Below are positions 4,875 to 32,157 of a stretch of DNA of 55,568 nt, one piece after another. The stretch covers positions 1-55,568 of the forward strand of contig JACDZG010000040.1 in assembly GCA_013426805.1 (NCBI GenBank). The letters run 5' to 3'. The stretch comes from Chromatiaceae bacterium. GTDB lineage: Bacteria > Pseudomonadota > Gammaproteobacteria > Chromatiales > Chromatiaceae. The notes under the pieces are model-generated. The model saw only the letters and a program-made list of their open reading frames with translations, did not search any database and was not told where the DNA came from. How positions within the stretch are numbered: position 1 is the first letter of the stretch; each line of letters begins with the position of its first letter. The translations under genes were made by a program, and so were the position numbers.

Positions 4875-4886
4875 CGGGTCGGGCCG

Positions 4887-5942: not shown

Positions 5943-5995
5943 CGGGGTCTCTGTCTGTCAGGGGGTGCGAGGTTGGGATGGCGGGTGGCGCTACC

Positions 5996-8026: not shown

Positions 8027-8055
8027 GTAGTTGGTGCCTCCCGAGCCGGGCGGCC

Positions 8056-8686: not shown

Positions 8687-9942
8687 TCAGTCGCTCGACC
8701 CGGTCGCGGCACGCGCACCACGGAACATTCGTACGGTCAGAGCGTCGTCGGTGGCCTCGAATTCCGGTGCCACCCCGTTGTGGCTGATCAGGAGCGGGAC
8801 GATCTTGGTACGTACCCCCATGCCGCGGGCGTCGACATAGCCATAGTCACGCAACACATCGACGATCAGCGGGTTGCGAGGCGAGCGCTGTCCTGCCAGC
8901 ATCTTCTCGACGGTCATGGAGTTCTGCAAGGCACCCGGGCTTTTCACCTCCAGCCGGTCGCCGTAGCTCACCACCTCCACATCCTCCATCCGGGTCCAAT
9001 CCCGGTGCGCGAGGGCGTTTATCAGCGCCTCCCGCGTCGCCGCCGCCGGGTAGAACCAGTGCCGATCGCGGCGGACCCCATCGGCGAGCTCGCCCGACTC
9101 CTCGGAGACAATGGGCCGCATCCGTTCGATCACGGCTTCCAGGAGACCGCCGCGCTCCAGGGTCCGGTCCCCGTCCTCGGTGCGCCAGAGTCCGACCAAG
9201 GCGTCGTCCAGGATCGCGTCATCCTGAGCCGCGTAGTCCATGGAATCCCCCGGAAACGCCATCCACCGCACCCCCGCCTGACGCAGCACCCAGCGCGGGC
9301 GCCTGCCGAACAGGACGATACCCGCAATGGTGCAGACCTCGGCCCCACCAGGACGCTCGGTCATGAAGCCCAGCCTGGTCAGCCGCTTGACCCAGGAATC
9401 CCCGTCCACAGGCACCTCCGGGTCCTTGAGCACCTGCCCCAGATAGTCGTGCAGGCGCTCCAGGTCCAGGTCCGCCAAGCCGGTGCCGGAGACCGGCAGC
9501 AATTCCGCGTGGAGGAGACCGCCCAGCGCGAACAGCCGCGCCTGCTGCTCGCGCGAAGCCTTGCGCGAGGTGCTCCCAACGCGAATGTAGATCTCCTCGC
9601 GGTCCTGGAGCCGCAGGACATAGGGCTTGGCCGTCCCCTGGGTCAGTGAGATCACCGCCACGCGGCGCCCGGCATCCACCTGCACCGTTTCAAAGAAGGG
9701 CAGGATCATCGGATGCACATAGCGCCCGAATACCGTGTCCATCACCCATTCTTCCAGGTTGTGCCGCTGGATACCGGTGATGGCACCGTCGTCTTCGACC
9801 CCGAGCAGGATAGTCCCCCCTGGAAGTTGGCCAGCGCGACGATCTCCTTCGCGAGTTGTTCCGGTCGAACATCGTCGCGTTTGAACTCCAGGCCGGAGCT
9901 CTCACCATTGGTAATCAACTCGAGCAGATCAGTCTTGGTCAT
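8687..9942 (-). pseudogene. AlbA_2 / RecG-like HATPase protein, split by a one-base frameshift
   Basis: From the ATG at 9942 the reading frame gives a Schlafen-type AlbA_2 start (GLEFKRDDV, EIVALANFQGG). It is then thrown out of frame. One base later, in the adjacent frame, the expected continuation appears (TILLGVEDDGAITGI) and runs to 8687. That part contains an HATPase_c_4-like region (REALINALAHRDW) and a winged-helix-like C-terminus. The break is at a run of six C on the plus strand (9815-9820); seven would restore a 418-residue protein. Such proteins are often regulators or defence-associated ATPases. The gene starts 6 bp after the PHP-ATPase gene, suggesting one operon. A homopolymer sequencing error is quite possible. 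Confidence 0.72.
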
Positions 9943-9948
9943 AGCGTG

Positions 9949-15536: not shown

Positions 15537-16466
15537 TCAGCAGCGCCCGCTGAGCGCGGACCAGAAAGCCGCCAGCGCCGCGGCATCGCCGGCGAAGCGG
15601 TCGCAGTCGCAATTGCCGACCCCGGTCACCCCATGCGGCTCCAGGCCGTGAGTGCCGTCGGTGTACTGCCACAGGGTCCAGCCGGCCCAGGCGGCGGGTG
15701 CCACCGGTGCGCTGCCGTACTCGGCCAGCCACAGCCAACAACTGCCCAGGATCGGATCCGCCGCATCGCCGAGCGCCGCGCGCGCCGTGCTGCCGGAGTA
15801 TAACCCCGGCCAGACACCGGTCCGCTGCTGCAGGTGGCTGACGAAGGCACGCGCCTGCGCCAGGGTCATCGACGCGCCTTGCGGATTGGGCTCCCAGTCC
15901 AGCACCAGCAGGGTCCGGCCATCCGGCTTGGCGACACCGAGAAAGTGCTCGGCCTGGACGACGGGGTCGTCGCCGGTGCCGAAGTGATAGGCGCCGAACA
16001 GGAACCCCGCCGCCAGCGCCTTGCCGCGGTTGCTCGCGAACATCGGGTCCGCATAGCCGGTGCCCTCCGTGGCCTTGTGAAACACCGCCCGCTTGCCGGC
16101 CTGATAGGCGGCCGGAAAGTTGACATTGCCGTTGAAGTGCGAGATGTCGAAGACCAGCGTATTCGTCGGCGCGCCGACGCCGGTCGTGGTCGGAGCGACA
16201 ACCGCGCTGCCGCCGGCCGGGGCCGCCGGCGCCGGTCGGGTCGGTGCGGCGTCGGCCGCCGGGCCGGCAACCGCCTGCAGATAGGCCGAATCACACCAGC
16301 CGGTGCACTGCTGCGCCGGTGCGCGGACATTGCGCCAGACGCCCGCGGCACTGACGCCGAGATCCTCGACCTCGGTGCCCCGCGGCAACTGGGTCAGGAC
16401 CCGCTGGTCGGCGCCGGGACCGTCGCGAAGTTCCAGGACACTCGCGGTGACGCGATACAGGGACAT
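15537..16466 (-). CDS. GH25 lysozyme with N-terminal SH3-like domain
   Basis: This 309-residue protein has an SH3-like domain (about 4-65, with two Cys), an Ala/Pro/Thr linker (66-100) and a GH25 domain (103-308). Key GH25 features are FDISHFNG with Asp107, the region ATEGTGYADPMF, and LVLDWEPN holding the Asp-Trp-Glu motif at 190-192. GH25 enzymes cleave the muramic acid-GlcNAc bond of peptidoglycan. The ATG at 16466 has GAGGAG about 8 bp upstream. There is no signal peptide, so it would need lysis, a holin or an unusual route to reach the wall. It lies between the membrane protein (66-bp gap) and the response regulator (77-bp gap). Confidence 0.88.
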   Translation of the reverse strand: MSLYRVTASVLELRDGPGADQRVLTQLPRGTEVEDLGVSAAGVWRNVRAPAQQCTGWCDSAYLQAVAGPAADAAPTRPAPAAPAGGSAVVAPTTTGVGAPTNTLVFDISHFNGNVNFPAAYQAGKRAVFHKATEGTGYADPMFASNRGKALAAGFLFGAYHFGTGDDPVVQAEHFLGVAKPDGRTLLVLDWEPNPQGASMTLAQARAFVSHLQQRTGVWPGLYSGSTARAALGDAADPILGSCWLWLAEYGSAPVAPAAWAGWTLWQYTDGTHGLEPHGVTGVGNCDCDRFAGDAAALAAFWSALSGRC

Positions 16467-16532
16467 GGTCGATTCTCCTCGGGGCATTGGTTGGGACGCG
16501 GGCGGCGGCGGGCCGCGTCGCGCCGGTGGGAA

Positions 16533-18348: not shown

Positions 18349-20778
18349 ATGTCAGCCGCGCATCCAGACCCGGCCCCGGCCGCCGCGCCGGACCCCGCCC
18401 CAGCCGCACCCGGCGCGGCCGGCTTTCCGACCCGCGCCGCCCACACCGCGGCCTGGGAGACCCTCGCCCGCGCCATCGCGGCGCGCGCGGATATGATCAG
18501 CGAGACCCCGCCGACCACCCCGCCGGCCGTCCCCGGCACGCTCACCATCATCGGCTCCGGCATCGAGTCGGTCGGCTTCGTGGTCGGCGACGAGGCGCTG
18601 ATCCGCGACGCCGACGCGGTGTTCTTCTGCGTCGCCGACCCCGCCACCGTGGTCTGGATCAAGACCCTGCGCCCCGATGCGCTGGACCTCTACGTCCTCT
18701 ACGACGACCACAAGGTCCGCTACCTGACCTACATGCAGATGGCCGAGGCGCTGCTGCACCCGGTGCGCGCCGGGCAGCGCGTCACCGCGATCTTCTACGG
18801 CCACCCCGGCATCTTCGTGCTCGCCAGCCATCGCGCGGTGCTGATCGCCCGCCGCGAGGGCCATCGCGCGACGCTGCGCCCCGGCATCTCGGCGCTCGAC
18901 TGCCTGTGCGCCGATCTCGGCATCGATCCGGCCCATCCGGGGTTGCAAACCCACGAGGCCACCGATCTGCTGCTACGCCGCCGCCGCCCCGACACCAGCC
19001 TGCATGTGGTGCTGTGGCAGGTCGGGCTGATCGGCGAGCTGGGCTTTCGCCGCCGCGGCTATCTGAACCGCCGCTTCGCGGTGCTGCTCGACTATCTGCA
19101 AGGGTTCTACGGACCCGACTACCCGGTGGTGAACTACATCGCCTCGCGCTATCCGGGCATCCCCCCGCTGATCGACTGCCACCCGCTGTCCGCCCTGCAC
19201 GACCCGGCCCTGCAGAGTGCCGTGACCGGCCTGTCCACCTTCTACCTGGCACCGCAGGACTGCGCCCCGGTGGACACCGCGCTGATGCGCGAACTGGGCC
19301 TGCTCGCACCCGGCCAAACGGTGCGCACCCCGACCTCGCCGCTGCGCGAGATCGGCCGTTACGGGCCGCGCGAGCGGCGCGCCTTTGCCGACTTCGCCCG
19401 TTTCCGCGTGCCGGCCGATTACCAATGGCAGCCCGACACCGCCGCCGGCCGCTTCCTGCTCGCCCTGCGCCAAGACCCGGCCCGCCGTGACCGCTACGCC
19501 CGCGATCCGCAGCGGGCCGTCTCGGCGGCCGAGTTTCCGGGCCTCGACGCCGCGGAACAGCGCCTGCTCGCCACCCGCGATGCCGGGGCCATCCAGGTCG
19601 CGGCCAAGGGCCTGGCGGCGTGCCATCCGGGCAATCAGGCCCTGCTGTCGGCGCTGTTCGCCGCGCCGCGGCTGGTGCGCGAGCTGAGCGGACTGCTGGC
19701 GCGCGCCCGCCCGCCCGCGGTCGCGCAGGAGGTCAGCGACTGGGCTGCCGCTCAGGACCATCCGTTGGATTGGGCGTCGCTGCGCGCGGATCTGGAGCGC
19801 ATCGGGCGCACCTCGCTGGTGCCCTGGGCCGGCGTCTATGGCGGCGCCGAAGGCCCGCTGGTGGTCATCCATGCCTTGGGGCCGCGGGTCGCGGTCTGGG
19901 TGGACCAGACCCCGATCCGCGCCCCAGGCTTTCGCGGCGGCGCGCTCAGTTGGCGCGCCCAGGCCGGCAACCCGCACCACGGACTGCTGCGGGTGGACCT
20001 CGACCGGCACGGCCGGCGCCGGCTGCTCGGCCACCTCTGGCCGGCGGGAGTCGGGGCGCCGGTCGGCGAACTGGCCATCCTGCGCGAGGGCGAGCCCGGT
20101 GCCCAGCATCCGGCCGCCTACCTGGGGCACTGGCCCGGCAGCGGACCGCATGCCGGCCGGACGCTGCGCATCGAGGTCGCCGACGGCGCCGCGGGACGGG
20201 CGCTGGTCATCGCCATTGACGACCAGCCCCTGGCCGGCCCAATCACGCTGCGCGGACGCACGCTGCGCGTCGCCGGACGGGCCTTGCGGCTGGCCCGCAT
20301 CGGCGAGCCCCACAGCGGCGACTGGCAACCCGCGGCCATGCTGCCGCCGGCGCTGTACGGCGACTATCGGCTCGACCCGCCGACCGCTGGGGTCCTCGGC
20401 ATCGGCGCCGACACCCTCGCCTGGAACGGTCAGGCCATCAACGCCTGCCACATCCAGCGCACCGGCATCACCTGGAGCGGCGGACCGGCCGGTGCGCTCG
20501 CCGGTCAGGTCACCGCCCTGCTCGACCCGGTGACCCTGTCGCCGGTGCTGACCGGCTGGATCGAGCCCACCTCCGGCCGACGCCGGCCCTGCACCGGGCG
20601 CGTACCGCCCCCCGCCGACCTGCGCCGGACCGGACCCGAATTCGGGCTGAGTGCACCGGTGTGGGACCGACTCGTCGCCCTGGCCGCCGCCGGCCAGCCC
20701 TTCGTCTGGGCGCGCTGGCGCAAGGCCCGCGCCGCCGCCGACCTGCTCAACCACCAACTGCGACCGCTGCTGCCATGA
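18349..20778 (+). CDS. Fused borosin-type peptide alpha-N-methyltransferase with long C-terminal extension
   Basis: The 809-residue protein has a tetrapyrrole-methylase fold at about 63-300 with GSGIES (69-74), FYGHPG (149-154) and PGISALDCLCADLGIDP. It aligns by eye with OphMA and SonM, including the Tyr115, Tyr118, Arg124, Tyr128 set, which matches the OphMA catalytic Tyr/Tyr/Arg/Tyr pattern. A clasp-like segment (300-360, LSTFYLAP) leads to a helical region (362-420, LLALRQDPARRDRYARDP) like the borosin-binding domain. Borosin enzymes methylate backbone amides of a peptide, here fused in cis. Residues 484-770 form about three degenerate beta repeats not found in OphMA. Any core peptide is unidentified. 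GGAG precedes the start; the stop overlaps the next gene by 4 bp. Confidence 0.85.
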   Translation: MSAAHPDPAPAAAPDPAPAAPGAAGFPTRAAHTAAWETLARAIAARADMISETPPTTPPAVPGTLTIIGSGIESVGFVVGDEALIRDADAVFFCVADPATVVWIKTLRPDALDLYVLYDDHKVRYLTYMQMAEALLHPVRAGQRVTAIFYGHPGIFVLASHRAVLIARREGHRATLRPGISALDCLCADLGIDPAHPGLQTHEATDLLLRRRRPDTSLHVVLWQVGLIGELGFRRRGYLNRRFAVLLDYLQGFYGPDYPVVNYIASRYPGIPPLIDCHPLSALHDPALQSAVTGLSTFYLAPQDCAPVDTALMRELGLLAPGQTVRTPTSPLREIGRYGPRERRAFADFARFRVPADYQWQPDTAAGRFLLALRQDPARRDRYARDPQRAVSAAEFPGLDAAEQRLLATRDAGAIQVAAKGLAACHPGNQALLSALFAAPRLVRELSGLLARARPPAVAQEVSDWAAAQDHPLDWASLRADLERIGRTSLVPWAGVYGGAEGPLVVIHALGPRVAVWVDQTPIRAPGFRGGALSWRAQAGNPHHGLLRVDLDRHGRRRLLGHLWPAGVGAPVGELAILREGEPGAQHPAAYLGHWPGSGPHAGRTLRIEVADGAAGRALVIAIDDQPLAGPITLRGRTLRVAGRALRLARIGEPHSGDWQPAAMLPPALYGDYRLDPPTAGVLGIGADTLAWNGQAINACHIQRTGITWSGGPAGALAGQVTALLDPVTLSPVLTGWIEPTSGRRRPCTGRVPPPADLRRTGPEFGLSAPVWDRLVALAAAGQPFVWARWRKARAAADLLNHQLRPLLP

Positions 20779-22232
20779 ACGCACCCCTCGTCGCCGCCCG
20801 CATCGGGTCGGATACCGCGCGCCACGCGGCCCGCATCGCCGCCGCGGCCCTGGCCCTCGCCGCCGCACCAGCCGCCGCCGACGACGGCCTGCTGGGGTTG
20901 CCGCCTGGGGTCGGTCTCGGCATCCTGGTCGGCGGGGTCGCCCTGATGGTCGGCTTCGTGGTCTGGGGCGTCCGCTACCTCGTGCAGGCGCGCCGCCACG
21001 CGCGGCTGGTGGCCGAAGACCTGGTGGCCGAAGACGAGGCCGCCGCGGCCCGCCGTCGCGTCCTGAGCGAGCAAGCAGACGAACGCGACTTGACGGCGGA
21101 TGAGCGCCATGAACTCGATGAGTTGAAAAAGGTCCCGCGGGGTGCGGCGGAGCGGGCCGGACTCAAAGCCGGCATCGAGGCCGAAATCGCCCGAGAGTTC
21201 GGCATCGTGCTGTGGCTGCTGCCGGGGCTGCCACCCGAGGTACGGGTCGAGCTCTGGGCGCTGCACACCGAGAACCGGGCACTGGCCTTGGATCTCATCG
21301 ACGTCCTCGCTGAACGCGAACCGGACCTCGGTGCGTTGCGCGAGCGGATCGCGGACCACTACCCGGAATTGACCACCTTCATCGAGACCCACCTGTCCGC
21401 GCCACCCGAGGCGCTGGCCGCCGCGCGCCGACGACTCCTGCAGGATGACCCGGCCCTCGACCGGCTCACCACCGGCCTGAGCAACGACGGGAAACGCCTG
21501 CGCCGGCTCGATCCGCGCGACCCTGAGACAGGCGTGCAGCTCCTGGACATCGTCAAGCGCGTGTCCGCCGCACGCCGACAACTGGACGACCGCCTGCAAC
21601 TGGTCCTGCCCCTGAGCGCCGACGAAGCGGCATGGGCCGAGCAGTTCCGCACTGAGGCGGAGGACGCCCGTCTGCAGGCCGTGATGCCGACCGCCTTCGA
21701 TGCCGATGGCAGGCGACTCGGGGACCCGAGGGGGCAACTCGGGTCGGCCGACCTCGACAAGCTCGACTGGCTCGTGCAAGGCGACATGACCGAGGCGCTG
21801 ACCCAGCACCGGCTGCACGCGTTTCACGAGGCGCGCAACAGGCGGCGCAAGACCGACCAATTGGAACAACTCGCCGCCGCGCAGCAAGCCCTCGCGGAAC
21901 AGGCCGCCGACGGCAGCAACCAGGGTCTCCAGCAACAGGAACAGGCCCTCACGGATCTTGCCTTCCAGATCGAGGCCATCGACCCCGCGTCGCCCAATGC
22001 CGCCGACTGGCTCACTGCCACCCAGCGCCAACTCGACCAGGTCAACGGCGCCGACGTGCAGCAGTCGCAAGCGCGCGATCGGCAGGTACAGGGCGGCATC
22101 GACAAGGTCATCCTCGGGGGCCGTGGTTCCACGGAGGAGGAAGAGCACAAGGTCTACAGGGAGCCGTCCCCCACCGATCCGAAGTCTGAGCCAAGCAGCC
22201 CGAGGAAAGAATTCCGGACATTTCCGGACTGA
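20775..22232 (+). CDS. Membrane-anchored coiled-coil protein, member A of a local family
   Basis: The 485-residue protein has a signal-peptide-like Ala-rich start (15-37, ending near AAADDG) and a membrane helix at about 42-70. A long helical domain follows. The last 130 residues are a Gln/Ala-rich module (QLAAAQQALAEQ, then ALTDLAFQIEAIDP, then DRQVQGGIDKVILGGRGS and an acidic EEEEHKVYRE) that recurs in the next gene. The ATG at 20775 overlaps the methyltransferase stop (ATGA), so the two are translationally coupled. I do not recognise the family. It could be a membrane scaffold or a trans substrate of the methyltransferase; neither is shown. Confidence 0.68.
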   Translation: MNAPLVAARIGSDTARHAARIAAAALALAAAPAAADDGLLGLPPGVGLGILVGGVALMVGFVVWGVRYLVQARRHARLVAEDLVAEDEAAAARRRVLSEQADERDLTADERHELDELKKVPRGAAERAGLKAGIEAEIAREFGIVLWLLPGLPPEVRVELWALHTENRALALDLIDVLAEREPDLGALRERIADHYPELTTFIETHLSAPPEALAAARRRLLQDDPALDRLTTGLSNDGKRLRRLDPRDPETGVQLLDIVKRVSAARRQLDDRLQLVLPLSADEAAWAEQFRTEAEDARLQAVMPTAFDADGRRLGDPRGQLGSADLDKLDWLVQGDMTEALTQHRLHAFHEARNRRRKTDQLEQLAAAQQALAEQAADGSNQGLQQQEQALTDLAFQIEAIDPASPNAADWLTATQRQLDQVNGADVQQSQARDRQVQGGIDKVILGGRGSTEEEEHKVYREPSPTDPKSEPSSPRKEFRTFPD

Positions 22233-22240
22233 AGCCGGAC

Positions 22241-22287
22241 CCCGCGCCGTCGCCGACCTGCTCAACCACAAAACTGAGGCTGCTGCC
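22241..22287 (+). repeat. Duplicated remnant of the 3' end of the methyltransferase gene
   Basis: This stretch nearly repeats 20726-20774, the codons for the last residues of the methyltransferase (AADLLNHQ region) up to the next ATG. It precedes the second coiled-coil gene just as the original precedes the first. It marks the left edge of a tandem duplication. Confidence 0.7.
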
Positions 22288-23343
22288 ATGACCGACACCA
22301 CCCCGACCGAACCCCTCGCCGCCACGGCCCCGCTCAAGACAAACACGCTCGGCGACGTCATCGACGCCGTCGGCAATAGTATCGTCGACGACTGGTGGCT
22401 CTGGCTCCTAGGCGCCTTCGCACTGTTCGTGATCGGGACGGTGCTCTGGGTCGCGATCCGCACGCCCGCGCGCGACCGGCTCGCGTTGCCGCCCCGACAG
22501 CGGGCAGCAAGCGACGCCGGCAGCGCGCCCGACGAGCTTATCCGCTATGGGCTGGAGGACCTGGAGCAAAGAACCAGAGAGTACGCGATATTGCAGGCAC
22601 GCAATACCCTCCTGCTTGACGTGCAAGAGCGGATCAAACGAGGTCTGATCGACCAGGGATTGAGTCCAACAGTCGCGGAACTTCCCTTTGCCGTGACCGA
22701 AGAGATCCGCGCCGATTTCAATGCCCAGTTCCCACTCGAGTCGCCGACCAGGACCACCGCCGAACGGCCGCGTGACCCGCGAGCAGACCCTTCGACCGCG
22801 CGTCGGCAGGAGTTCGTGGACGACTGGGTAAAGGCCCTGCACGCGCAGTTGACCAATCCCACCCGATTGGCGGAAGGCCAACAGCGCAGCGCATTGACCG
22901 CCGCCCTCGCCCCGCTCAGCAAAGTGCAAGCCGCCCGCAAACAGCGTAACACGGACCGCAAGAACGTCCAATTGACGCAACTCGCCGCTGCGCAGCAAGC
23001 CCTTGCGGATCAGGCCACCATCGGCAGCACCCAGGGGCTCCAGGAGCAGCAGCAGGCCCTCACGGAACTTGTCTTCCAGGTCCAAGCCATCAACCCCGCG
23101 GCCCCCGATGCCGCTGCCCGGCTCGACGCCACGCAGCACCAACTCGACCAGATCGCCGGCGTCGGCGTGCAACAGTCCCAGCCGGGCGATCGGCAAGTGC
23201 AAAGCGGCATCGACAACGTCATCGCCGCGGGCCGGGGTTCCCCGGAGGAAGAAGAGAAAGAGTTCTACCGGGACCGGCCCGTCAGCGATCCGCGTGACGA
23301 GCCATCCGGCCAGTACCGCGAAGTCAAGCCACGCATCGACTGA
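22288..23343 (+). CDS. Membrane-anchored coiled-coil protein, member B
   Basis: The 351-residue protein has a short cytosolic start and a TM module at 22-58 (LGDVIDAVGN, then DDWWLWLLGAFALFVIG) that recurs in the proteins at 24318 and 25032. The C-terminal 100 residues are close to those of member A (QLAAAQQALADQ, ALTELVFQVQAINP, DRQVQSGIDNVIAAGRGSPEEEE). The TM part differs from member A, so the gene looks like a mosaic: tail duplicated, anchor exchanged. The remnant just upstream supports tandem duplication. Function unknown; likely co-transcribed with the methyltransferase from P2. Confidence 0.68.
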   Translation: MTDTTPTEPLAATAPLKTNTLGDVIDAVGNSIVDDWWLWLLGAFALFVIGTVLWVAIRTPARDRLALPPRQRAASDAGSAPDELIRYGLEDLEQRTREYAILQARNTLLLDVQERIKRGLIDQGLSPTVAELPFAVTEEIRADFNAQFPLESPTRTTAERPRDPRADPSTARRQEFVDDWVKALHAQLTNPTRLAEGQQRSALTAALAPLSKVQAARKQRNTDRKNVQLTQLAAAQQALADQATIGSTQGLQEQQQALTELVFQVQAINPAAPDAAARLDATQHQLDQIAGVGVQQSQPGDRQVQSGIDNVIAAGRGSPEEEEKEFYRDRPVSDPRDEPSGQYREVKPRID

Positions 23344-23437
23344 GCCCAACCCCCGAGCTGTACGGCACCCACCGCCCGCGGTGCGCGGTGCGCGGGCTCG
23401 GCCCGCGCCGGTACCGCCAGCCTCCCCATCGAAACAA

Positions 23438-23501
23438 TTGCGGCGCGCCGACCTCTGGTTGCGGCACGCCGACCCCACCCGATGCCGGTTGCGCGAATAC
23501 T
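23438..23501 (+). promoter_or_regulatory. 21-bp-period promoter P3
   Basis: TTGCGGCGCGCCGA (23438-23451) and TTGCGGCACGCCGA (23459-23472) have a 21-bp period. AATACT follows at 23496-23501, 24 bp on. It lies about 50 bp before the degraded gene at 23554, so the promoter has outlived its gene. Confidence 0.7.
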
Positions 23502-23553
23502 TCACACACCATCCCAACCCGCGCCTGCCGCGCCCTTTCTGGAGCAGCCGAGC

Positions 23554-24136
23554 ATGACCGATACCGCCCCGACTGCCGCCGCCCTCGCTGCCTGGCGCCG
23601 CATCGCCACTGATCCCGAGGCCGGGGCGGCGCGCGGTCTCACCGCCGTCGGCAGCGCCCCGGCAGCGCTGTCGGCGCGCCTCGCCGCGCTGCTGAACAGC
23701 CACGCCGACGGCGTCGCCCCGCAAGACCTGGCTGCCGCTGGCGCCCGGCTGCCCATGAACAGGCCGCGCAACTTGCGGATATCGCGCAAGCCCAACAGAG
23801 GCTCGTCGATAGCGCCGACAATGGGACAACGGCGGGCAATCAAGAGTACGCGACCCTGCTGGCGTTGCAACTGGAGGTGAGCGCGATCGATACCGAGAAG
23901 CCATGGCAGGCCGCACAGACGCTCCAGGACACCAGAAAACAGATCGATGCCGTCCAAGCCAGCAGCACGCCCCAGTCCAAACAGCAGGCCGGGTCGCCGA
24001 GCCAGTCCCTGCCGCGAAGCGACGGTTACCGCTCCCGCGAGGGCGATGAGCCGCACGACCCCACCGGCCGCCCCGAAAGCCCGCAGACCCAGCATCATAC
24101 GGCAGAGGAACCTCGCAACTACGTCGAGCCGCAGAC
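23554..24136 (+). pseudogene. Internally deleted, frameshifted coiled-coil family gene
   Basis: The first 66 codons (MTDTAPTAAALAAWRRIA and onward) match the start of the protein at 25032. At about 23757 the frame jumps. A different frame then reads the family tail (EQAAQLADIAQAQQRL, YATLLALQLEVSAIDTEKP, AQTLQDTRKQIDAVQ), like the last 110 residues of the 25032 product. The central several hundred codons, including the membrane helix, are missing. A palindromic repeat begins at 24137. The tail frame stays open through that repeat to the next ATG. It is a decayed paralogue. Confidence 0.68.
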
Positions 24137-24234
24137 GGTCCGCACAGCGGACCCTACGGTAACGCCGTGGCCTGTAGTCCGCTGTGCGGACCGGCGGCCG
24201 TGCAGGTCGCGCGATGGCCGGGTTGATGACCAAG
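24137..24234. repeat. Palindromic repeat element, two-armed copy
   Basis: GGTCCGCACAGCGGACCCTA at the left faces its near reverse complement about 40 bp on (TCCGCTGTGCGGACC). A conserved flank ending in TTGATGACCAAG follows. Further copies are at 46558-46621 (one arm, inverted) and 50641-50741. One frame through it is free of stops. Confidence 0.75.
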
Positions 24235-24317
24235 GCCCCCGTCGCCCATCGGTGCGCCCGCTACTCATGCCATTCGGTATCACGCGCCGCCCGGCCATCA
24301 CCCAGGAGCAACAACCC

Positions 24318-24735
24318 ATGACCGACCCCGTCTCAACCCTCGCCGCCGCCGACGCCCCGAACAGCGCCACCGCCGCGGTACCGCAGCAGGCGTTCTCGCT
24401 TGGCGATACCGCTGCCGCCGTCGGCAACTTCATTGCCGACAATTGGCCGATCTTGACACTCGTCGCCGTCCTCGGCGTCGTCATCGGCGTTATCGTATTG
24501 GCCCGCAGGGTCTTGGGCGCCAACGCAGAGCAATACCAGCGCGAAGCAGCGCATCCTAGCCGACGACCAAGAGAACCAGACGCGCGCCAAGCAACTCGAC
24601 GCCAGCCTGGCACCAGGCAGGCGAGCGCCGTCGTACGACAACGATGGAGAGGAACGAAAGGTCGATGCGTTGACGAACGATCGGCAGCGCGACCAGCGCC
24701 CTGCAGAGCACAACCGATGGCTGGACCCGGATTAG
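24318..24735 (+). pseudogene. Short membrane-anchored family member with frameshifted tail
   Basis: The ATG at 24318 opens a 67-residue start with the family TM module (SLGDTAAAVGNFIADNWP, then LVAVLGVVIGVIVLARR). After about 24530 the same frame turns Arg/Pro-rich. Another frame reads a plausible helical tail (AKQRILADDQENQTRAKQLD, ending HNRWLDPD) to a stop at 24733-24735. One indel would give a protein of about 138 residues. No 21-bp-period promoter precedes it; the palindromic repeat lies upstream instead. It may be broken or a sequencing artefact. Confidence 0.5.
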
Positions 24736-24801
24736 AGCAAAGTTGAAGGTTCAGTCTTGCCCGTGCGGGACAGCAGGCCCGCCATCCGCCTTGTTCCGTG
24801 C

Positions 24802-24832
24802 TGATTGATCGGGCCGGATGCCCGATCAATCA
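24802..24832. terminator. Strong hairpin after the degraded coiled-coil genes
   Basis: A perfect 13-bp stem (TGATTGATCGGGC with its complement) closes a CGGAT loop. It lies 67 bp after the end of the frameshifted gene and before promoter P4. There is no T-run after it, so it is terminator-like rather than a classical intrinsic terminator. Confidence 0.5.
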
Positions 24833-24916
24833 AGTCCCCTGAGCGCCGAACGCCCGCCTGGTCGGTACCCGGCACCCACCCCGGCACCCGCCGGCCTGGC
24901 CTCCCACCCGCAGAAA

Positions 24917-24980
24917 TTGCGGCGCGCCGATCCATCGTTGCGGCGCGCCGATCCCGCCCGACGCCGGTTGCACGAATACT
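24917..24980 (+). promoter_or_regulatory. 21-bp-period promoter P4
   Basis: Two exact TTGCGGCGCGCCGA copies lie at 24917-24930 and 24938-24951. AATACT is at 24975-24980, 24 bp on. The predicted start site is near 24987, 45 nt before the ATG at 25032. Similarity to P3 extends through the leader, so P3 and P4 come from one duplication. Confidence 0.72.
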
Positions 24981-25031
24981 TCACTCGCCACGCCACCCCG
25001 CGCCTGACGCGCCCTTGCCGGAGCAGCCGAC

Positions 25032-27131
25032 ATGACCGACACCGCCTTGACCCCAGCCGCCGCGGCCCTCGCGACCTACCGGCGGCTCGTCGCCGATCCG
25101 CACCTCATCGCCGCGCTCGACAGCGCGGCCGACGGCCACCCGCCCGCCGACCGGTCGGCGCAGCTTGCCGCGGCCGGGCACGCCGACGGCGGCAGCGTCG
25201 GCCTGGACGAACTGGCGGTGCAGGGCGCCCGGTTGCTCACCGACCCCGCGGCCTGGCTCGGCGACGCACCCGAGCTGGTCTTCCACCTCGCCACGCTGGA
25301 CCACGGCGGCGGCGGGCCGCCGCGCCCGGCCGGGCAGGTGCGCCTGACCCGCTCCGGGGCGCCGGACAACACCGACTGTCCCTGCGAGTACCAGGCCACC
25401 GATGGCACCACCACCGCGCTGCGCCTGGACGCGGGCCGCCTGATTGCCGCCGCCGCGGCCGGCGCGGAGGCCTCGCCGCTATGCCTGTATCTCGGCTTCG
25501 CCGGGGCGCCGGGGGCGGCCTCCGCCGCCCCGGTGTTGGTCGGCAACCTCGGCGACCGGCCCGCCCTGGGGTTGGTCGACCCCGGCACGCAGCAGGCTCT
25601 CTCGATCAACGACATCGCCGACAGCTTCACCGACTATTGGTGGGCCTGGTTGATCGGCGCGCTCGGTTTCTTCGGCATTGTCGGCAGCATCGTCGCCATC
25701 GTGCGTTGGCGGCGGGTCGCGGACGCGCCCCGGGAGCAGCCACAGGGTGCAAACGGAGAGCCACCGGTGCGGGATGCGTTCGACCAGCGCGCCCAGGACC
25801 GCCCGAACCCACCCGTGCCGGAGCAGATCGAGGCGGCCAAGAAGCGCTATCTCGAGCAAGTCACGGACGGGGTCGACGCGGCCCTGACGGAGCGCAAGCT
25901 CCCCCGGCTGACCGAGCCGCAGCGGCAAGCCCTGCAGAGCGCCTTCGAGCAGGCATTCGGATTACCGGAAGGCGACGCCGTGGGCACCTGGGTGATGACC
26001 TGGGCAATGACCAAGCAGAACGCCTTTATCGCCAACCAGGTGGAGAAGTTCATCGACTCGGAGGCACGACCACCGCAGAAGCCCCCGCGGGCTTCCCAAG
26101 CGCTAAAAGACACCGCGGACACCATGAAGCGCCTGTACGACGAGGCGCTCACGGCGATCCGCCAAGGCCTCACAGACACGGGAAAGACCAAGGACTGGAT
26201 CGACCGGGCACTAGAGTATTCGCAGGAGGGTTTGGTCACACGATTCCAGCGAGCCATCGGCAGACCGTCCACAACCGAAGGCGAGAACTGGATCGCCGAC
26301 TGGATCCGTCCTTGGGCAACCGGCGGGCGGGACGCCTATGTCCAAGACTGGATCAAAGACCTGCCGAAGCTCCCATTAGCGGACAACCAGTCGCTCAGCG
26401 ACTCGGCAGACGACCTGATCTTGAGCGTGGAGCTGACGGCGGAAGAAGCGGCGGAACTCGACCAACGCTACCTCCGGATCCAGCAGCAGGACGGCAACGC
26501 GCGAGACCCGGCAGAGCAGCGCAACCGCCGGACCGAGGCCCAGCAAACCATTGAGCAGATGGCCATCAAGACCGGGCTCCAAGGCCAGCGGCCGCAAACC
26601 CGGCAGGAACGCTTCGCCGAGCTGCGCGGGATCCAGACCAACCTGGACCGCTTGGCGAAGGTGCCTGAGGCCGACCTGCAACGGCGGGCTGATGAGACAC
26701 GGGTGCAGTACCAGGCCCGCCTTGAAGCACAGCGCCGGGCCTTGGCGCAGCAAGAACAGGCCGCGCAGCTTCAGGAGATCGCGGACAGCATGCAGGTGCT
26801 CAGTACCAACGCGGCGCTCGGTGTGACCAACGAAGACACAAAGGAGTACGAGGCCTTGCTGCAGCTTCAAACCCAGGTCGCGGCGATCGATCCCAGCGAC
26901 CCACAGGCCCCCGAGCAACTGCGCAGCAGCGCCGAACAGATCAACTTGCTCAACGCCAGCATCGTGCTCCAGTCCGACCGCCAGGTGACGCACCTCGACC
27001 AGTCCCAACGGCTGAAGAACCAGCAGGCCGAGGACGACTACCGAGAGCAGGAAGAGAAGATTCAAGACCTCGATCGGCAGCAGTCTCCAGGAGCGCACGA
27101 GCGCAGTAGGGAGCACTACACCGAAAAGTGA
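25032..27131 (+). CDS. Membrane-anchored coiled-coil protein, full-length member C
   Basis: The 699-residue protein has an N-terminal soluble domain (1-190), the family TM module at about 192-228 (SINDIADSFTDYWWAWLIGALG) and a very long helical, Gln/Glu-rich C-terminal half. The tail around 570-650 (EQAAQLQEIADSMQ, YEALLQLQTQVAAIDP, ASIVLQSDRQV) is the module seen in members A, B and the pseudogene at 23554. Its first 70 residues match that pseudogene. GGAG lies about 10 bp before the ATG. No enzyme motif is visible; a membrane scaffold is one guess. It is driven by its own P4 promoter. Confidence 0.68.
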   Translation: MTDTALTPAAAALATYRRLVADPHLIAALDSAADGHPPADRSAQLAAAGHADGGSVGLDELAVQGARLLTDPAAWLGDAPELVFHLATLDHGGGGPPRPAGQVRLTRSGAPDNTDCPCEYQATDGTTTALRLDAGRLIAAAAAGAEASPLCLYLGFAGAPGAASAAPVLVGNLGDRPALGLVDPGTQQALSINDIADSFTDYWWAWLIGALGFFGIVGSIVAIVRWRRVADAPREQPQGANGEPPVRDAFDQRAQDRPNPPVPEQIEAAKKRYLEQVTDGVDAALTERKLPRLTEPQRQALQSAFEQAFGLPEGDAVGTWVMTWAMTKQNAFIANQVEKFIDSEARPPQKPPRASQALKDTADTMKRLYDEALTAIRQGLTDTGKTKDWIDRALEYSQEGLVTRFQRAIGRPSTTEGENWIADWIRPWATGGRDAYVQDWIKDLPKLPLADNQSLSDSADDLILSVELTAEEAAELDQRYLRIQQQDGNARDPAEQRNRRTEAQQTIEQMAIKTGLQGQRPQTRQERFAELRGIQTNLDRLAKVPEADLQRRADETRVQYQARLEAQRRALAQQEQAAQLQEIADSMQVLSTNAALGVTNEDTKEYEALLQLQTQVAAIDPSDPQAPEQLRSSAEQINLLNASIVLQSDRQVTHLDQSQRLKNQQAEDDYREQEEKIQDLDRQQSPGAHERSREHYTEK

Positions 27132-27227
27132 CCCTACCCGCGCCGCCAGCCGCGGTTGGCGACCGGTCGGGCCGGTGCATCCTGGTGCGGCGCGCAAGGC
27201 CCCCGCCCGTGTGCCGGTTCGCAATGG

Positions 27228-27291
27228 TTGCAGCGCGCCGATGCACCATTGCGGCGCGCCGACCCCGCCGCCCCGCGGCACGCCCTAGGCT
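27228..27291 (+). promoter_or_regulatory. 21-bp-period promoter P5
   Basis: TTGCAGCGCGCCGA (27228-27241) and TTGCGGCGCGCCGA (27249-27262) are 21 bp apart. A weaker TAGGCT lies at 27286-27291, the same 24 bp on. The leader to the ATG at 27323 is only about 25 nt. Confidence 0.65.
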
Positions 27292-27322
27292 TTAACCATC
27301 CATGAACCCGGAGGACCACCGC

Positions 27323-29296
27323 ATGTCAACCAGCACCACCACCATCACCTTCAACCCGGCCTGTGTCGTCACCAACAACCTGACGGCGCCGACGGCGCCC
27401 GCCAACCCCGGCCCCCAGGCGACCTGGGATGGCAGCCTGATCGCCATCAGCGCCTACAACACCGGCAATGGCGTCGCGGCCGGCTATCAGCAGACCCTGC
27501 AACCGCTGCCGTTCAATCAGGGCGTGCCGCCGGCGCTGGAGCAGATCGTCGCGACCACCACCCTGACCACCACCGGCAGCGGCAGCAACGCCACCACCAA
27601 GGCGACTACGTCCTATGGCCCGCCGACCGCGCTGCCCAATACCCTGACCAGCACCACCGGCCCGTGCAGCGGCAATGGGACGACCCTGGCGCCCGGCCAG
27701 TCCGATACGCTGACCCTGGCCAATGCCCCCGGCAGCGCACCGAGCACGGGCAGCGGCAGCACCCCCCCCGGCGGGGTGTTCGACCTGATCTTTGCGCAGC
27801 CCGACAACTGGTTCCCGGTGCAGAGCGTCGGCACCATGGCCCTGTCCATGCCCGGCTTCGGCGCCAGCGCCGGCACCAGCAAGATGACCTACCAGCCGAT
27901 CACACTGACCGCCACCACCACGCCCGACGAGCCCAGCCCCTGCGTCAATGCCTGGCTGTTCTATCAAGAGATCAATGCCAACCCGAGCAGCGAACTGGCA
28001 CAGCAGTTCGGCCAGGTCGGTAATTCGCTCAATCAGACCGCCGGCTCGACCAGCGACATCGACAGCGCCATCGCCGCGTTCTTCAAAGGCACCAAGGACT
28101 ACCAGAACGTCACGTTGGCCGCCTGGACGGCGGTGTCGAGCTGGTTGACGACCTTCGCCACGCCCTGGGCCAACTTCGCGTCGGAGTACACCTATTACCT
28201 GACCAAGCAGCCGACGAACCCGCACGACTCCAAGAAGGCCGGCCGCATCGTGTTCAGCAAGTCCTCGACCGACACCCCATCCATCATCCTGCCCGGCGGC
28301 GGCACCAACGCCATGGCGGGCTATGCGATCACCTATTACGACGACTGGGACGACAAGACCGACGGCGCCATGTCGCTCTACTTCTGCAACGGCCAGTTGG
28401 TGTCGGACCTCCACGCGGACGTCCCCGCGGTGTGCCTGGCGCTCAATTACGCCTCGCTCTCCACCTTCTCGGCACAACAGGAGGATTGGGGCAGCATCGT
28501 CCCGACCTTGGCGGGCAACTTCGAGGGGACGCAGGTGGTCGGCTTGCACTGGAAAAAATCCGACGACGAAGACGGCTGGCAGAAGTTTGAGGCCGGAGCC
28601 GACAAGGTCTGGGGCTCCACCGGCATGCATGTCTTCATGTCGATCACCGCCTTGATGATGAGCTTGGGCATGGTCTTCGAATGCGTCTCGTGGATCTACA
28701 AGAAGCTCAAACCCAAGGAGCAGGCGAGCGGCGAGAAAGCGACCGACGAGGATATCGCGGAGGTGCACAACGACGCTGCGGACAATCTTGACACGACCCA
28801 GAAGGATGCCCAGGCCGACGCCGACAAGCTCGGCCCGAACGCGCCCCAGGTGCCGGAGGGCAGCGAGCTTCTGCAGAACCAGCAGAATGTTCAGCAGAAG
28901 CTCCAGACGAGCGACAACCAGGTGGCAATCGACGGACAGCAGGTCGAGGTCGAGATGCAGGAGCAGCAGATCGAGGAGGACGCCAGCGTATCGGTCGACC
29001 AGAACCTGGAGAACCAAGCCATGAAGGTCGAGACCGAGAGTACGCAGATCAGCGGCGAGAATGCCGCTGACCCGAATGTGAAGCAGGAGATCACCGAAAA
29101 CCAGCAGCAGATCACCGCCGAGCAGTCGCAGCTCAAGGTCATCGACCAGCAGGACAGCGCCGGCTTCTCCGTGCAACAGCAGCAACAGAATGCGGAGGCC
29201 GAGGACGATCTGAACAAGATCACGGAAGAGAAGAACGAGGAACAGGCCAAGGAGAAATCCAAGAACGACGAGTTCAAGCCGGACGAGGAGTTCTAG
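27323..29296 (+). CDS. Large TM protein with Thr/Gly-rich N-terminus and Gln/Glu-rich coiled-coil tail
   Basis: The 657-residue protein was given the ATG at 27323 because GGAGG lies 9 bp upstream; an ATG at 27302 lacks one. Residues 1-190 are Thr/Ser/Gly/Pro-rich and beta-like. A domain at about 205-290 (CVNAWLFYQEINANP, IAAFF, VTLAAWTAVSSW) is shared with the next gene (HCQALWAFYQQ, VADFF, CTLAQWTQVGWW). One membrane helix lies near 434-458. The last 190 residues are highly acidic and Gln-rich (QQVEVEMQEQQIEEDA). I do not recognise a family. It is probably the first gene of an operon with 29425 and 32232. Confidence 0.65.
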   Translation: MSTSTTTITFNPACVVTNNLTAPTAPANPGPQATWDGSLIAISAYNTGNGVAAGYQQTLQPLPFNQGVPPALEQIVATTTLTTTGSGSNATTKATTSYGPPTALPNTLTSTTGPCSGNGTTLAPGQSDTLTLANAPGSAPSTGSGSTPPGGVFDLIFAQPDNWFPVQSVGTMALSMPGFGASAGTSKMTYQPITLTATTTPDEPSPCVNAWLFYQEINANPSSELAQQFGQVGNSLNQTAGSTSDIDSAIAAFFKGTKDYQNVTLAAWTAVSSWLTTFATPWANFASEYTYYLTKQPTNPHDSKKAGRIVFSKSSTDTPSIILPGGGTNAMAGYAITYYDDWDDKTDGAMSLYFCNGQLVSDLHADVPAVCLALNYASLSTFSAQQEDWGSIVPTLAGNFEGTQVVGLHWKKSDDEDGWQKFEAGADKVWGSTGMHVFMSITALMMSLGMVFECVSWIYKKLKPKEQASGEKATDEDIAEVHNDAADNLDTTQKDAQADADKLGPNAPQVPEGSELLQNQQNVQQKLQTSDNQVAIDGQQVEVEMQEQQIEEDASVSVDQNLENQAMKVETESTQISGENAADPNVKQEITENQQQITAEQSQLKVIDQQDSAGFSVQQQQQNAEAEDDLNKITEEKNEEQAKEKSKNDEFKPDEEF

Positions 29297-29424: not shown

Positions 29425-32157
29425 ATGACCGACATCGCCGTCACCGTCGTCAATCAACTCGATTGCGCGCTCTGCGTGTGCAATTCGTTCACGCCGACCC
29501 CGCCCGCTACCGCGAACCCGAGCACCGATGCCGCCGACTACCAGGCGGTGCATACACCCATCGGCACGGTGCCGGCCAATGGCTCGGCCACGGTCACGGC
29601 GCCGGGGCCGATCTGTCAATTGGTCATCAGCCGCGCCACGGACGGCTTCCCGGTACAGGAATTCGTGCCGCCGTTCAACGCCACCGCGGCGAGTACCACC
29701 ATCACGGACGACGACCTCGGCCACTGCCAGGCGTTATGGGCCTTCTATCAGCAGGTCTTTGCCCAGCCCTACAGCCCCGCCGCGCTGCAGTTCAATGCGC
29801 TGCTGCTCGGTACCACCAACATCGGCGCCCTATCCGCGCAGGTGGCGGACTTCTTCAATGCCAATGGCCTGCCCGGCTGCACCCTGGCCCAATGGACCCA
29901 GGTCGGCTGGTGGGCCGGCAACGACCTGCACGCCTGGGACGGCACCTATTGGTGCTATCTGCCGCCGGACCTGTCCGGCGGGCTGGTGCTGCCGGACGAA
30001 CCCTGTGCCACGCTCTGTATCAGCAACGGCGCGGCGCGGTGGACGCCGACCGCGGCAACCGGTACCCCGCCGCCGGTGCTGACCTATGCCGACAATCTGC
30101 TCACCTCCGCCGGTGCCGGACCCACCAGCGGGCTCTATCTGACCGCGCTGCCCCGCGAGTTGGCCTGGGAGGGCCAGCCGGGGGTGCAGGCGCTGTGCCT
30201 GATCGGCACCATGGACGGCAAGCAGTTGATCGCGCAGCCCTATCAGAATCCACCGCTGCCCTGGTGGGTCGGGGCCTATGACCTGGCCTGGATCAGCTTC
30301 CAGACGCTGCAGGTGGCGATGACCTTGCAGATGATCGGCGTGGTGTTTGCGCAGAGCGCCGGCGCCCTGGCCTGGCTGTCGGCGCGGGTCGGCGACCTGG
30401 TGCAGTCGATCAGCGCCCGACTCAGCGCGCGTGCCGAGAGCGCGGACCCGGACGCGGCGATGGGCACGGAGGCGGACCCAGTAGACGTGGATGTGGATGT
30501 CGATACCGATACCGACATCGTCGACATCACCGAGACCGATACCGTCACCGACACGGACACCGATACCGACATTGACGTCGACGTGGACGACGACTGCTTT
30601 GCCGTCATCGACGTGGATACCGATGTGGACGTGGATATCGACACCGATATCGACGACGAGACCGATATCGACATCGACACCGATATCGACACCGACATCG
30701 ACACCGAGGTGGCGGTGCCCCCCGGTTCCGTGAGCCGCGCGCTGAGTCGTCTCGGCCATTGGATCATGGCCGAGGGCTTCGCGCTGCTGGTGAAGAACCT
30801 GGCGATCATGGGCGCCTTGATCGGCACCCAGAAGCTGCTCGGCGCCTGGGGTCAGGCCGCCGGCCAGGCGGAGCTGGACCTGGCCCCGGAGCAGTGCACC
30901 GGGCTTGGGCTCCTCACCAATTACATGCGCAACCCGGCCAACCCCATCGGCGAGCGCTGGGACACCTTCGCCGATTACGTGCAGCAGGCCGGCCCCGACG
31001 CCGGCGAGCAGACGGTGTTGCTCAGCGCCATCGTCAGCACCGGGGACCCGAGCGAGGATCAGGCGGCGGCGGCCTGGAACTGGCCGGCGCTGACGCGCGA
31101 GGCGCTGGTGCTGGTGCTGGCGCAATACCACAGCAGCGCGACCGACGACACCGCCTATCGCATCCTGGCGCAGTACGTCGTCAATGGTCAGCCGCTGCCG
31201 CTCAAGGTCGGCGCCGAGACCGCGCTCAGTGCCATCGACACGGTGGTGGACCCGGCGCCCGGGCTCACCTACGGCACGATTGCGCTGGCGGCCACCGCGG
31301 GCGGCACGGCCGGCGCCTTCGGCAAGCCGCGGGCCTTGCAGCAATCGGTGGCCAATCCCGGCGGGCTCGCGCTCGCGGTGTTTGCCGACCGGCTGACCAT
31401 GGCCTTCACCGGGCCGGCGCGCTTCCTGAACCTCTGGTCGAGCAGCGACGGCAAGACCTTCGGCAACCAGGTGGTGCTGCCCTACGCGAGCCGGTATGCG
31501 CCTTCGCTCGCGGTCTGCGCCGGACAACTGGTGCTGACCTTCGTCGGCATGGATGGGCCGCTCTATCTGTGCTGGTCGGCGGACGCGCTGACCTTCAGCA
31601 CGCCGGTGGTGTGGAGCGGCCCGGTGCCCAGCGCCCGGCCGACGCTGACCAGCGCGGACGGTGCGCTGTGGGTGGCCTGGGCCGACGGCGGCCGCCTCGA
31701 GGCCTGGCAGTCGCCGCAGTTGGCGGGCCTGGTCCACGGCCAGCCGGCGTCGAGCTTCCTGTCCGGCTGGCAGGACGGGGGGACCTTCGGCTCGGGTTTC
31801 GGCGCGGTGCCGGTGAGTCTCACGACCCGCGACGGGGCCTTCCGGCTCGCGTATACCACCACCGCGGCGGGTGCCGGCGGCGCCCGGCTCGGGCTCGCCG
31901 GCTCGGCCATCGGTGCCGGCTCCTATCGCCCCATCGCCATGCCCGCGCCGCTCGCCGTAGACGGGGATCTGGCGCTCGCCACCGACGGCGAGGCGCTGGT
32001 GGCCTGTTATGTCAGCGCCGGCCAGGTGATCTGCTGCCAGGCGCCGGACAGCGCCCAGTATCGATTGAGCACCATTGCCGTCGGCGCGCAGCCGGCGGCC
32101 GCGTTGTTCAACGGCAACCTGTATGTCGCCTATACCGTGGCGCGTGCCGCGGCTTGA
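29425..32157 (+). CDS. Large TM protein with Asp-X repeat and propeller-like C-terminus
   Basis: The 910-residue protein has an N-terminal beta-like region with several Cys, a domain at about 105-175 shared with the 27323 product, and a hydrophobic stretch (about 290-330). An extraordinary acidic repeat of Asp alternating with Val/Thr/Ile follows (354-430), then a second hydrophobic segment (about 447-475). The C-terminal 280 residues contain sialidase/propeller-like blades (FLNLWSSSDGKTFGNQVVLP; LYLCWSADALTFSTPVVW). No signal peptide is visible. The Asp repeat may bind Ca2+ or other cations, which is an inference from composition. I know no family with this layout. Confidence 0.68.
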   Translation: MTDIAVTVVNQLDCALCVCNSFTPTPPATANPSTDAADYQAVHTPIGTVPANGSATVTAPGPICQLVISRATDGFPVQEFVPPFNATAASTTITDDDLGHCQALWAFYQQVFAQPYSPAALQFNALLLGTTNIGALSAQVADFFNANGLPGCTLAQWTQVGWWAGNDLHAWDGTYWCYLPPDLSGGLVLPDEPCATLCISNGAARWTPTAATGTPPPVLTYADNLLTSAGAGPTSGLYLTALPRELAWEGQPGVQALCLIGTMDGKQLIAQPYQNPPLPWWVGAYDLAWISFQTLQVAMTLQMIGVVFAQSAGALAWLSARVGDLVQSISARLSARAESADPDAAMGTEADPVDVDVDVDTDTDIVDITETDTVTDTDTDTDIDVDVDDDCFAVIDVDTDVDVDIDTDIDDETDIDIDTDIDTDIDTEVAVPPGSVSRALSRLGHWIMAEGFALLVKNLAIMGALIGTQKLLGAWGQAAGQAELDLAPEQCTGLGLLTNYMRNPANPIGERWDTFADYVQQAGPDAGEQTVLLSAIVSTGDPSEDQAAAAWNWPALTREALVLVLAQYHSSATDDTAYRILAQYVVNGQPLPLKVGAETALSAIDTVVDPAPGLTYGTIALAATAGGTAGAFGKPRALQQSVANPGGLALAVFADRLTMAFTGPARFLNLWSSSDGKTFGNQVVLPYASRYAPSLAVCAGQLVLTFVGMDGPLYLCWSADALTFSTPVVWSGPVPSARPTLTSADGALWVAWADGGRLEAWQSPQLAGLVHGQPASSFLSGWQDGGTFGSGFGAVPVSLTTRDGAFRLAYTTTAAGAGGARLGLAGSAIGAGSYRPIAMPAPLAVDGDLALATDGEALVACYVSAGQVICCQAPDSAQYRLSTIAVGAQPAAALFNGNLYVAYTVARAAA
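30478..30714 (+). repeat. In-frame 6-bp-type repeat coding for an Asp-X tract
   Basis: Degenerate GACACC, GATATC and GACGTG hexamers in tandem encode alternating Asp and Thr/Ile/Val for about 75 residues with few interruptions. Third-base variation suggests selection on the protein rather than recent slippage. Confidence 0.85.

Follow-up and report, generated by a model that had tools for sequence, protein, structure and literature searches.

A coreless bacterial borosin-type N-methyltransferase and a candidate large-protein substrate with an internal aspartate tract

To our knowledge, few pathways are known to methylate the backbone nitrogens of translated proteins, and borosins are usually seen as makers of peptides. 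Fungal type I borosins end in a short hydrophobic core, and the split types V-X reportedly go back to Imani and to Cho, both in 2022. Among bacteria, KchMA is a characterised fused type III borosin (PMC11395268), and type III cores are described there as acidic residues alternating with other residues. Up to 11 modifications are possible within KchMA residues 742-796, with the nonpolar Ala, Val and Leu preferred and some Asp (Xu et al., PMC11395268). The same report distinguishes class 2 split borosins, in which enzyme and borosin-binding domain (BBD) share one protein and the core is separate, and a type VIII with ~160 residues after the core. Split borosins of types IV-X exist (PMC11285071), and SonM is without a clasp, the BBD residing on the small SonA (PMC8429565). 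Here we analyse a borosin-type peptide alpha-N-methyltransferase gene (18349..20778, plus strand, ATG to TGA, 809 amino acids (aa)) on a contig of a Chromatiaceae bacterium (assembly GCA_013426805.1, JACDZG010000040.1), the whole 55,568 nucleotides of which are referred to as the window. Comparison at the level of sequence makes it likely that the enzyme belongs to a split borosin acting in trans, and that its substrate is an internal Asp tract of a large protein, B, encoded in the same locus.

By sequence and fold the 809-aa protein is a borosin-type backbone N-methyltransferase, and no second borosin enzyme was found in the window's genome. A search of PDB sequences aligned residues 60-423 with OphMA (364 residues, E 5.8e-73) and also returned MroMA (E 2.5e-66) and SonM (residues 63-318, E 1.5e-40); these E-values exclude chance similarity to OphMA and SonM. 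Pfam TP_methylase was matched at E 3e-10. The methyltransferase domain (residues ~60-325, 18526..19323), which was used for the tree below, is followed by a clasp/BBD region (residues ~335-423, 19351..19617), delimited by the OphMA alignment and by helices 340-420. Next comes an extension (19618..20775, plus strand throughout) that the structure model and profile homology divide into a helical segment (424-490), three beta modules (491-760) and C-terminal helices. Methylase, clasp and binding domain thus stand in the order of OphMA, as a reading made earlier from the letters alone (the sequence-only reading) had proposed. The motifs GSGIES and FYGHPG are present, and Y115, Y118, R124, Y128 and Y150 are invariant in 14/14 aligned rows, the window included; we take the OphMA catalytic residues Tyr63, Tyr66, Arg72, Tyr76 and Tyr98 to be their reference set. 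The sequence-only reading had picked out the methylase fold, both motifs and the first four of these residues, and in this it was right. Moreover, nine residues important in KchMA are identical in the enzyme (9/9) at a constant offset of 45, the comparison being with the published list and not with the KchMA sequence itself; beside the Tyr/Arg set these include C94, S181, Q224 and F233.

An AlphaFold model of the enzyme (mean predicted local distance difference test (pLDDT) 79.3, 14 input sequences) contains the methylase, helices 340-420 at the clasp/BBD site, a second helical stretch at 427-488, beta modules at ~495-597, 605-648 and 671-751, and then the C-terminal helices, with low confidence in some parts of the methylase (e.g. 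72-78, 191-197, 225-237 and 323-334). The ~390-residue extension with about three beta repeats that had been noticed in the translation is recovered in the model as three beta modules. OphMA was the top Foldseek match (E 5.7e-24) and SonM chains were listed with template modelling scores of 0.67-0.68 by target length. A failure of residues 300-420 to match the clasp/binding domain, which would have refuted the sequence-only reading, did not occur, the sequence alignment running to 423. The whole-chain root-mean-square deviation from OphMA is large (~22 Å), which is taken to reflect the clasp of OphMA being swapped between chains.

One scan of genome contigs returned 14 related loci, from Methylococcaceae, Paracraurococcus, Massilia, Pseudoduganella, Paraburkholderia and a Pedobacter metagenome-assembled genome (MAG), and further from Nannocystis (three), Ruegeria, Magnetococcales, Methylumidiphilus (a broken gene), Niveispirillum and Azospirillum. 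The layout of the window is found in 10 of the 14, whose enzymes measure 686-754 residues from the GSGIE-type motif on (that of the window, 741); L011 has a broken version of it, and L009, L014 and L015 encode longer enzymes with acidic tails. In L014 and L015 (Niveispirillum and Azospirillum, ~1000 aa) an Asp/Asn-rich stretch is followed by a ~160-residue tail beginning CFLTTA, and these two are possibly cluster 4 of PMC11395268.

Any 30 residues of the window enzyme's extension include 6 acidic ones at the most, and none of its stretches alternates; an acidic alternating core, as in type III, was not found within the enzyme polypeptide. By the same scoring L009 reaches 17 acidic residues per 30 with 26/30 in alternating register, and L014/L015 reach 22 per 30 with 17/30 in register. 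Fifteen enzymes that we call coreless were scored, L011 being excluded here and from the tree because its enzyme gene is broken; 14 of them have a maximum of no more than 8 acidic residues per 30, and the exception, L081, has 10 with only 16/30 in register. An acidic cis-core in the extension was rejected on these scores, which cover acidic cores and not short hydrophobic ones. The model predicts a fold for the extension right up to the C-terminus, which is helical (769-780 and 787-807) and aligns among relatives. The extension is also the least conserved part, at 15-38% identity to coreless rows versus 61-76% over residues 60-300 of the methylase (11 coreless rows; 63% to L009 and 40% to L015); the clasp/BBD region is 47-64% identical to 12/13 aligned relatives and 21% to L015.

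The beta region of L009 proved homologous to the extension by profile comparison, the alignment spanning 280 columns (probability 98.8, E 6.8e-17), and in that Magnetococcales protein the beta region is followed by a hydrophobic helix and then the acidic tail. Moreover, the helices and first module of the extension match a separate precursor in the Burkholderiales locus L082 (probability 92.5, E 4.9e-7), where a 385-residue borosin enzyme frame is directly followed by a 571-residue frame (9379-11091) ending in a (TTDV)n tract. Since homologues of the extension precede a separate acidic core in L009 and L082, we infer that the enzyme has taken over a precursor scaffold as its extension, the core having been lost. 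A second Burkholderiales locus, L088, has a 467-residue borosin enzyme frame, directly after it a 323-residue precursor frame (7303-8271) with (TTEV)n near its end, and then an oxygenase; comparison of the L088 proteins with the extension gave no significant match (probability 6.6% and 0.2%). PDB sequences gave no significant match to the extension either. A hydrophobic helix before the L082 tract had been suspected by eye, and no peak there reaches 1.3; a Nif11-like reading of the helical segment, also made by eye only, was dropped as it had no Pfam match. The sequence-only reading had regarded the protein as cis-acting, with the extension replacing or following the usual short core. A bacterial borosin with fused clasp/BBD and an unusual extension survives from that proposal; the extension as core is not supported, given its few acidic residues, its predicted fold and homologues that precede a separate core. 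The remark that known bacterial examples are split is out of date, as KchMA is fused.

Three neighbours, A, B and C, emerged as conserved when the loci were compared all against all. Gene B (29425..32157, plus strand, 910 aa; about 600-1100 aa across loci), on which the sequence-only reading had made no remark, is the conserved partner of the coreless enzyme and the proposed trans substrate. Its product comprises an N-terminal beta/helical/beta domain, a hydrophobic helix, the Asp tract, a helical C-domain and a further C-terminal region. The tract, the proposed core, covers residues 349-437 (30469..30735, plus strand; 89 residues, 40 of them Val, Ile or Thr). Such a tract is present in 15/15 B proteins, where it is 81-115 residues long and Asp mostly takes turns with Val, Ile or Thr; the register slips in places, and a short hydrophobic motif, e.g. 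CFAVI or FIAVV, recurs near the middle. Two of two plasmid B proteins have a tract as well, with 37 and 39 of 40 residues in register (17/17 in total). In the window the tract scores 37/40, the best of 495 frames, the next best reaching 26, and 5000 shuffles of the tract gave a mean of 25.2 and a maximum of 32. Its codons are mixed, and hence the alternation is maintained at the level of the protein. In 9/9 B proteins scored the tract comes after a hydrophobic stretch (peak 1.35-2.11), only some of these being clear membrane helices, and another follows it in 6/9, the window included. About 170 residues after the tract are conserved, and the tail of L014/L015 looks different from them. A model of the first 620 residues of B (mean pLDDT 62.6) is unreliable at 280-493 and has much of both flanks ordered. 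Because the tract lies inside B, flanked on either side by conserved domains, a modified protein is quite possibly what is made, and not a peptide that is set free.

Homology of B to L009 was not supported (probability 3.2%), and a match between B and the L082 precursor comes from the low-complexity tract together with the stretch ahead of it and was not counted as homology. No significant PDB sequence match to B was obtained. We also note a weak possible likeness of its N-terminal beta domain (residues 1-93, 29425-29703) to that of pVHL: the 50 Foldseek matches listed for the B model are without exception pVHL, the best at E 2e-3, with 9-13% identity and none at or below 0.001.

B is held in 15/16 coreless loci, and in 14/16 it is the same-strand gene immediately upstream of the enzyme. 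L011 is without a local B; its genome (G441) has B next to a second enzyme gene on a different contig (L056). Second A-B-enzyme loci of this kind (L055 and L056) were seen on another contig in two MAGs, the genomes of L002 and L011. Counted by genome, B occurs in 12/12 with a coreless enzyme versus 0/3 with a core-bearing one, 11 of the 12 having supplied the B profile and so not being independent; the twelfth is G441. In the Massilia family (294 genomes), the three genomes that have B are the three that have the enzyme with extension, and 15 genomes with other borosin enzymes are all without B. The same three of 294 would coincide by chance 1 in 4.2 million times, the three genomes not being independent: G434 supplied the profiles, G680 is a near-copy of it, and G655 is the independent case. 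Moreover, of 72,556 plasmids, nine have a borosin methylase match; the three with the extension are the three with B (Azospirillum lipoferum 4B and two records of Mycetohabitans endofungorum), and the six that match only part of the methylase region are without B. The order A-B-enzyme-oxygenase is found in 2/2 annotated plasmid regions examined. A candidate precursor with a core-like tract is thus encoded with the enzyme, as in split borosins, and B would presumably be modified by it. Co-inheritance of an enzyme without an acidic core and a B with a tract speaks for a split system acting in trans.

In the tree, L009 adjoins the coreless clade (16 rows together, support 100/100) and L082 is the next branch (94/80), an order that agrees with capture of a scaffold by the enzyme; L028 and L032 were excluded by a length filter. 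The 15 coreless enzymes fall on one side of a branch with support of 93/66. Nannocystis groups with Paraburkholderia, and the Pedobacter MAG with Ruegeria. In a set of 38 genomes made up of the window's and its relatives, the gene was found in the window's alone, and it was found in 0/7 genomes of the same genus; in a sample of the phylum, 2/398 genomes have the enzyme with extension (the window's and a Magnetococcales genome), and the extension is in 1/282 genomes of a Myxococcota sample. Patchy occurrence and groupings across lineages point to spread of the enzyme gene by horizontal transfer or, in the Pedobacter case, to a mis-binned MAG.

We therefore propose the following course of events, in which each step is conditional. 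An ancestral fused precursor scaffold would have been kept on the enzyme and its acidic core lost, the core now lying inside B; L082 and L088, with their separate (TTDV)n and (TTEV)n proteins right after the enzyme, provide a precedent for such a split. By homology the enzyme would form a head-to-tail dimer like that of OphMA. B would dock via its N-terminal domain, and we would guess that it does so on the enzyme extension. The extended tract would then be threaded through the active site and its backbone amides methylated, most likely at many of the alternating aliphatic and Thr residues and perhaps at some Asp, by analogy with the KchMA core. Modification of a large protein, already suggested as a possibility in the sequence-only reading, may now be tied to a specific candidate, B. 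In most relatives a StrG-like 2-oxoglutarate (2OG)-Fe(II) oxygenase might then oxidise the same protein.

This oxygenase, encoded by gene C, comes directly after the enzyme in 12/16 coreless loci, with a remnant in L011, and is absent from the loci of the window, L002 and L056. RefSeq annotates the plasmid versions as StrG, TIGR04324 is matched below cut-off and Pfam PhyH just below cut-off, and no PDB sequence match was significant. H110, D112, H168 and R179 are invariant in 5/5, a set that we take to be the 2OG-Fe(II) oxygenase pattern. A relative of the oxygenase is encoded after the L088 precursor (E 2.2e-22).

Between the enzyme and B, from 20775 to 29296 on the plus strand, lies a family of helix-plus-coil proteins that the sequence-only reading had also left unremarked. 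The TGA of the enzyme overlaps the ATG of the first, O2 (20775..22232; shared ATGA), a 485-aa protein with a strongly hydrophobic helix and a coiled tail. O3 (22288..23343, 351 aa) has a hydrophobic helix and a coiled tail similar to that of O2. A remnant at 23554-24000, which looks like a broken paralogue, starts like the protein of 25032..27131 and continues in another frame. That 699-aa protein, its frame set by codon-position GC, consists of an N-terminal segment, a hydrophobic helix and a coiled tail; it matches no Pfam family and shares a 52-residue stretch with the O2 tail (E 3e-5). Gene A (27302..29296, 664 aa) is a paralogue of the N-terminal region of B; it has a hydrophobic helix, and its coiled tail is acidic and rich in Gln. 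In hhalign its profile matches the first ~310 columns of the B profile (probability 99.0, E 9.4e-18), the tails being different, and A is found in 14/15 loci that hold B.

Several points weigh against trans action on B. In the window B is 8.6 kb downstream of the enzyme, there is no oxygenase at the locus, and none was found in the genome by a search made without a positive control. The single origin of the coreless clade is only moderately supported by the branch given above. Homology between the N-terminal domain of B and the enzyme extension, plausible by eye, was not supported by profile comparison (probability 2.6%, E 0.017). Short tract-like matches occur elsewhere in two Nannocystis genomes, G440 and G442 (model positions 332-404, E 6e-6 to 6e-4), and thus these two have Asp tracts outside B as well. 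The tract of B could be an acidic segment that stays unmodified, e.g. a metal-binding one, and A, O2, O3 or the 699-aa protein could be the real partners.

Each of these alternatives can be set against the comparisons above. Were the enzyme to methylate its own 390-residue extension or C-terminus, as OphMA does, the OphMA-like order of domains would be explained, and fused bacterial relatives with acidic tails of their own do exist (KchMA, PMC11395268; L009); we nevertheless consider this improbable, given the low acidic content of the coreless enzymes (L081 included, in a test blind to a short hydrophobic core) and an extension that is predicted folded to its end and is the least conserved part. 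Slightly less probable again is action in trans on A, O2, O3 or the 699-aa protein. All four are encoded in the same direction between enzyme and B, and A is both a paralogue of B and nearly as widespread in the B-holding loci; however, no plus-strand frame of the window besides B exceeds 24/40 in alternation, and the A proteins of the two plasmid regions score 27 at most. None of the other 20 loci compared yielded O2 or O3, which are thus not general partners, the 699-aa protein being outside that search. Asp tracts are able to bind cations, the model of B contains large folded domains and similar short tracts occur in the two Nannocystis genomes, all of which would suit a tract that is an unmodified tether or metal-binding segment, linked to the enzyme through shared export or regulation, with the enzyme serving another substrate or being inactive. 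This we judge to be about as improbable as action in cis, because B and the enzyme co-occur, the key residues of the enzyme are intact, the tract resembles published type III cores (PMC11395268) and it follows a hydrophobic helix, as do the acidic tails of L009 and L015.

Other genes of the window lie around this locus. Directly after B is a B-lectin protein of ~495 aa (~32232-33720, plus strand), in which a Pfam scan of 32235-33719 gave five B-lectin stretches (E 7.5e-22), which resembles putidacin L1 lectin-like bacteriocins (NCBIfam E 3e-60, below the model cut-off). The domain scan identified a glycosyl hydrolase family 25 (GH25) lysozyme with an SH3_3 domain at 15537-16487 on the minus strand, and the lectin/lysozyme setting given in the sequence-only reading is thereby confirmed. 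FGE-sulfatase-like, AAA ATPase and caspase/VMAP-C proteins stand in a row at 1020-8026 (minus strand) and resemble a conflict or signalling cassette. A TIR/SEFIR-domain protein was found by domain scan at 45634-47223 (minus strand), and not far from it is an HSDR_N protein with a weak NACHT match (40347-43427, plus strand).

In summary, this family of loci names a concrete large-protein candidate substrate for a borosin enzyme, and its co-inherited pairs of enzyme and candidate substrate are suited to co-expression. It suggests that a fused precursor and enzyme can be separated at different places: all in one in L009, split in L082 and L088, and as a coreless enzyme with an internal tract in the clade of the window. 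Should methylation of the tract occur in place, N-methylation of the backbone would be a structural protein modification in bacteria and a tool for making long N-methylated segments. More tentatively, we envisage a machinery outside peptide natural products that places dozens of backbone N-methyls, and hydroxyls where the oxygenase is present, on a tract of a large, perhaps membrane-linked protein whose domains are kept on both sides. Methylation of every second residue might cap a strand edge and give a stiff, protease-resistant and aggregation-proof acidic ribbon as a permanent structural part.

A coreless enzyme with a precursor scaffold and a partner of 600-1100 residues with an internal core was not found in the literature surveyed, which lacks the works defining types V-X and a 2024 profiling study; the pair with B may fall under a published split type, e.g. 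VII or VIII. StrG-like 2OG-Fe(II) oxygenases are encoded directly after borosin genes in most relatives and not in the window. With OphMA, dbOphMA and MroMA, its best PDB matches, the window enzyme shares the order of methylase, clasp and BBD over 364 residues; unlike these fungal type I proteins it continues after the BBD into a folded 390-residue extension. KchMA is a long protein with the same kind of methyltransferase and the nine identical key residues, but its methylated region is in cis (742-796), whereas the window enzyme is without an acidic core and the tract is in B. As in SonM/SonA, enzyme and core are on separate, co-encoded proteins; unlike that system, the window has the BBD on the enzyme and a candidate substrate of ~600-1100 aa with the tract inside it.

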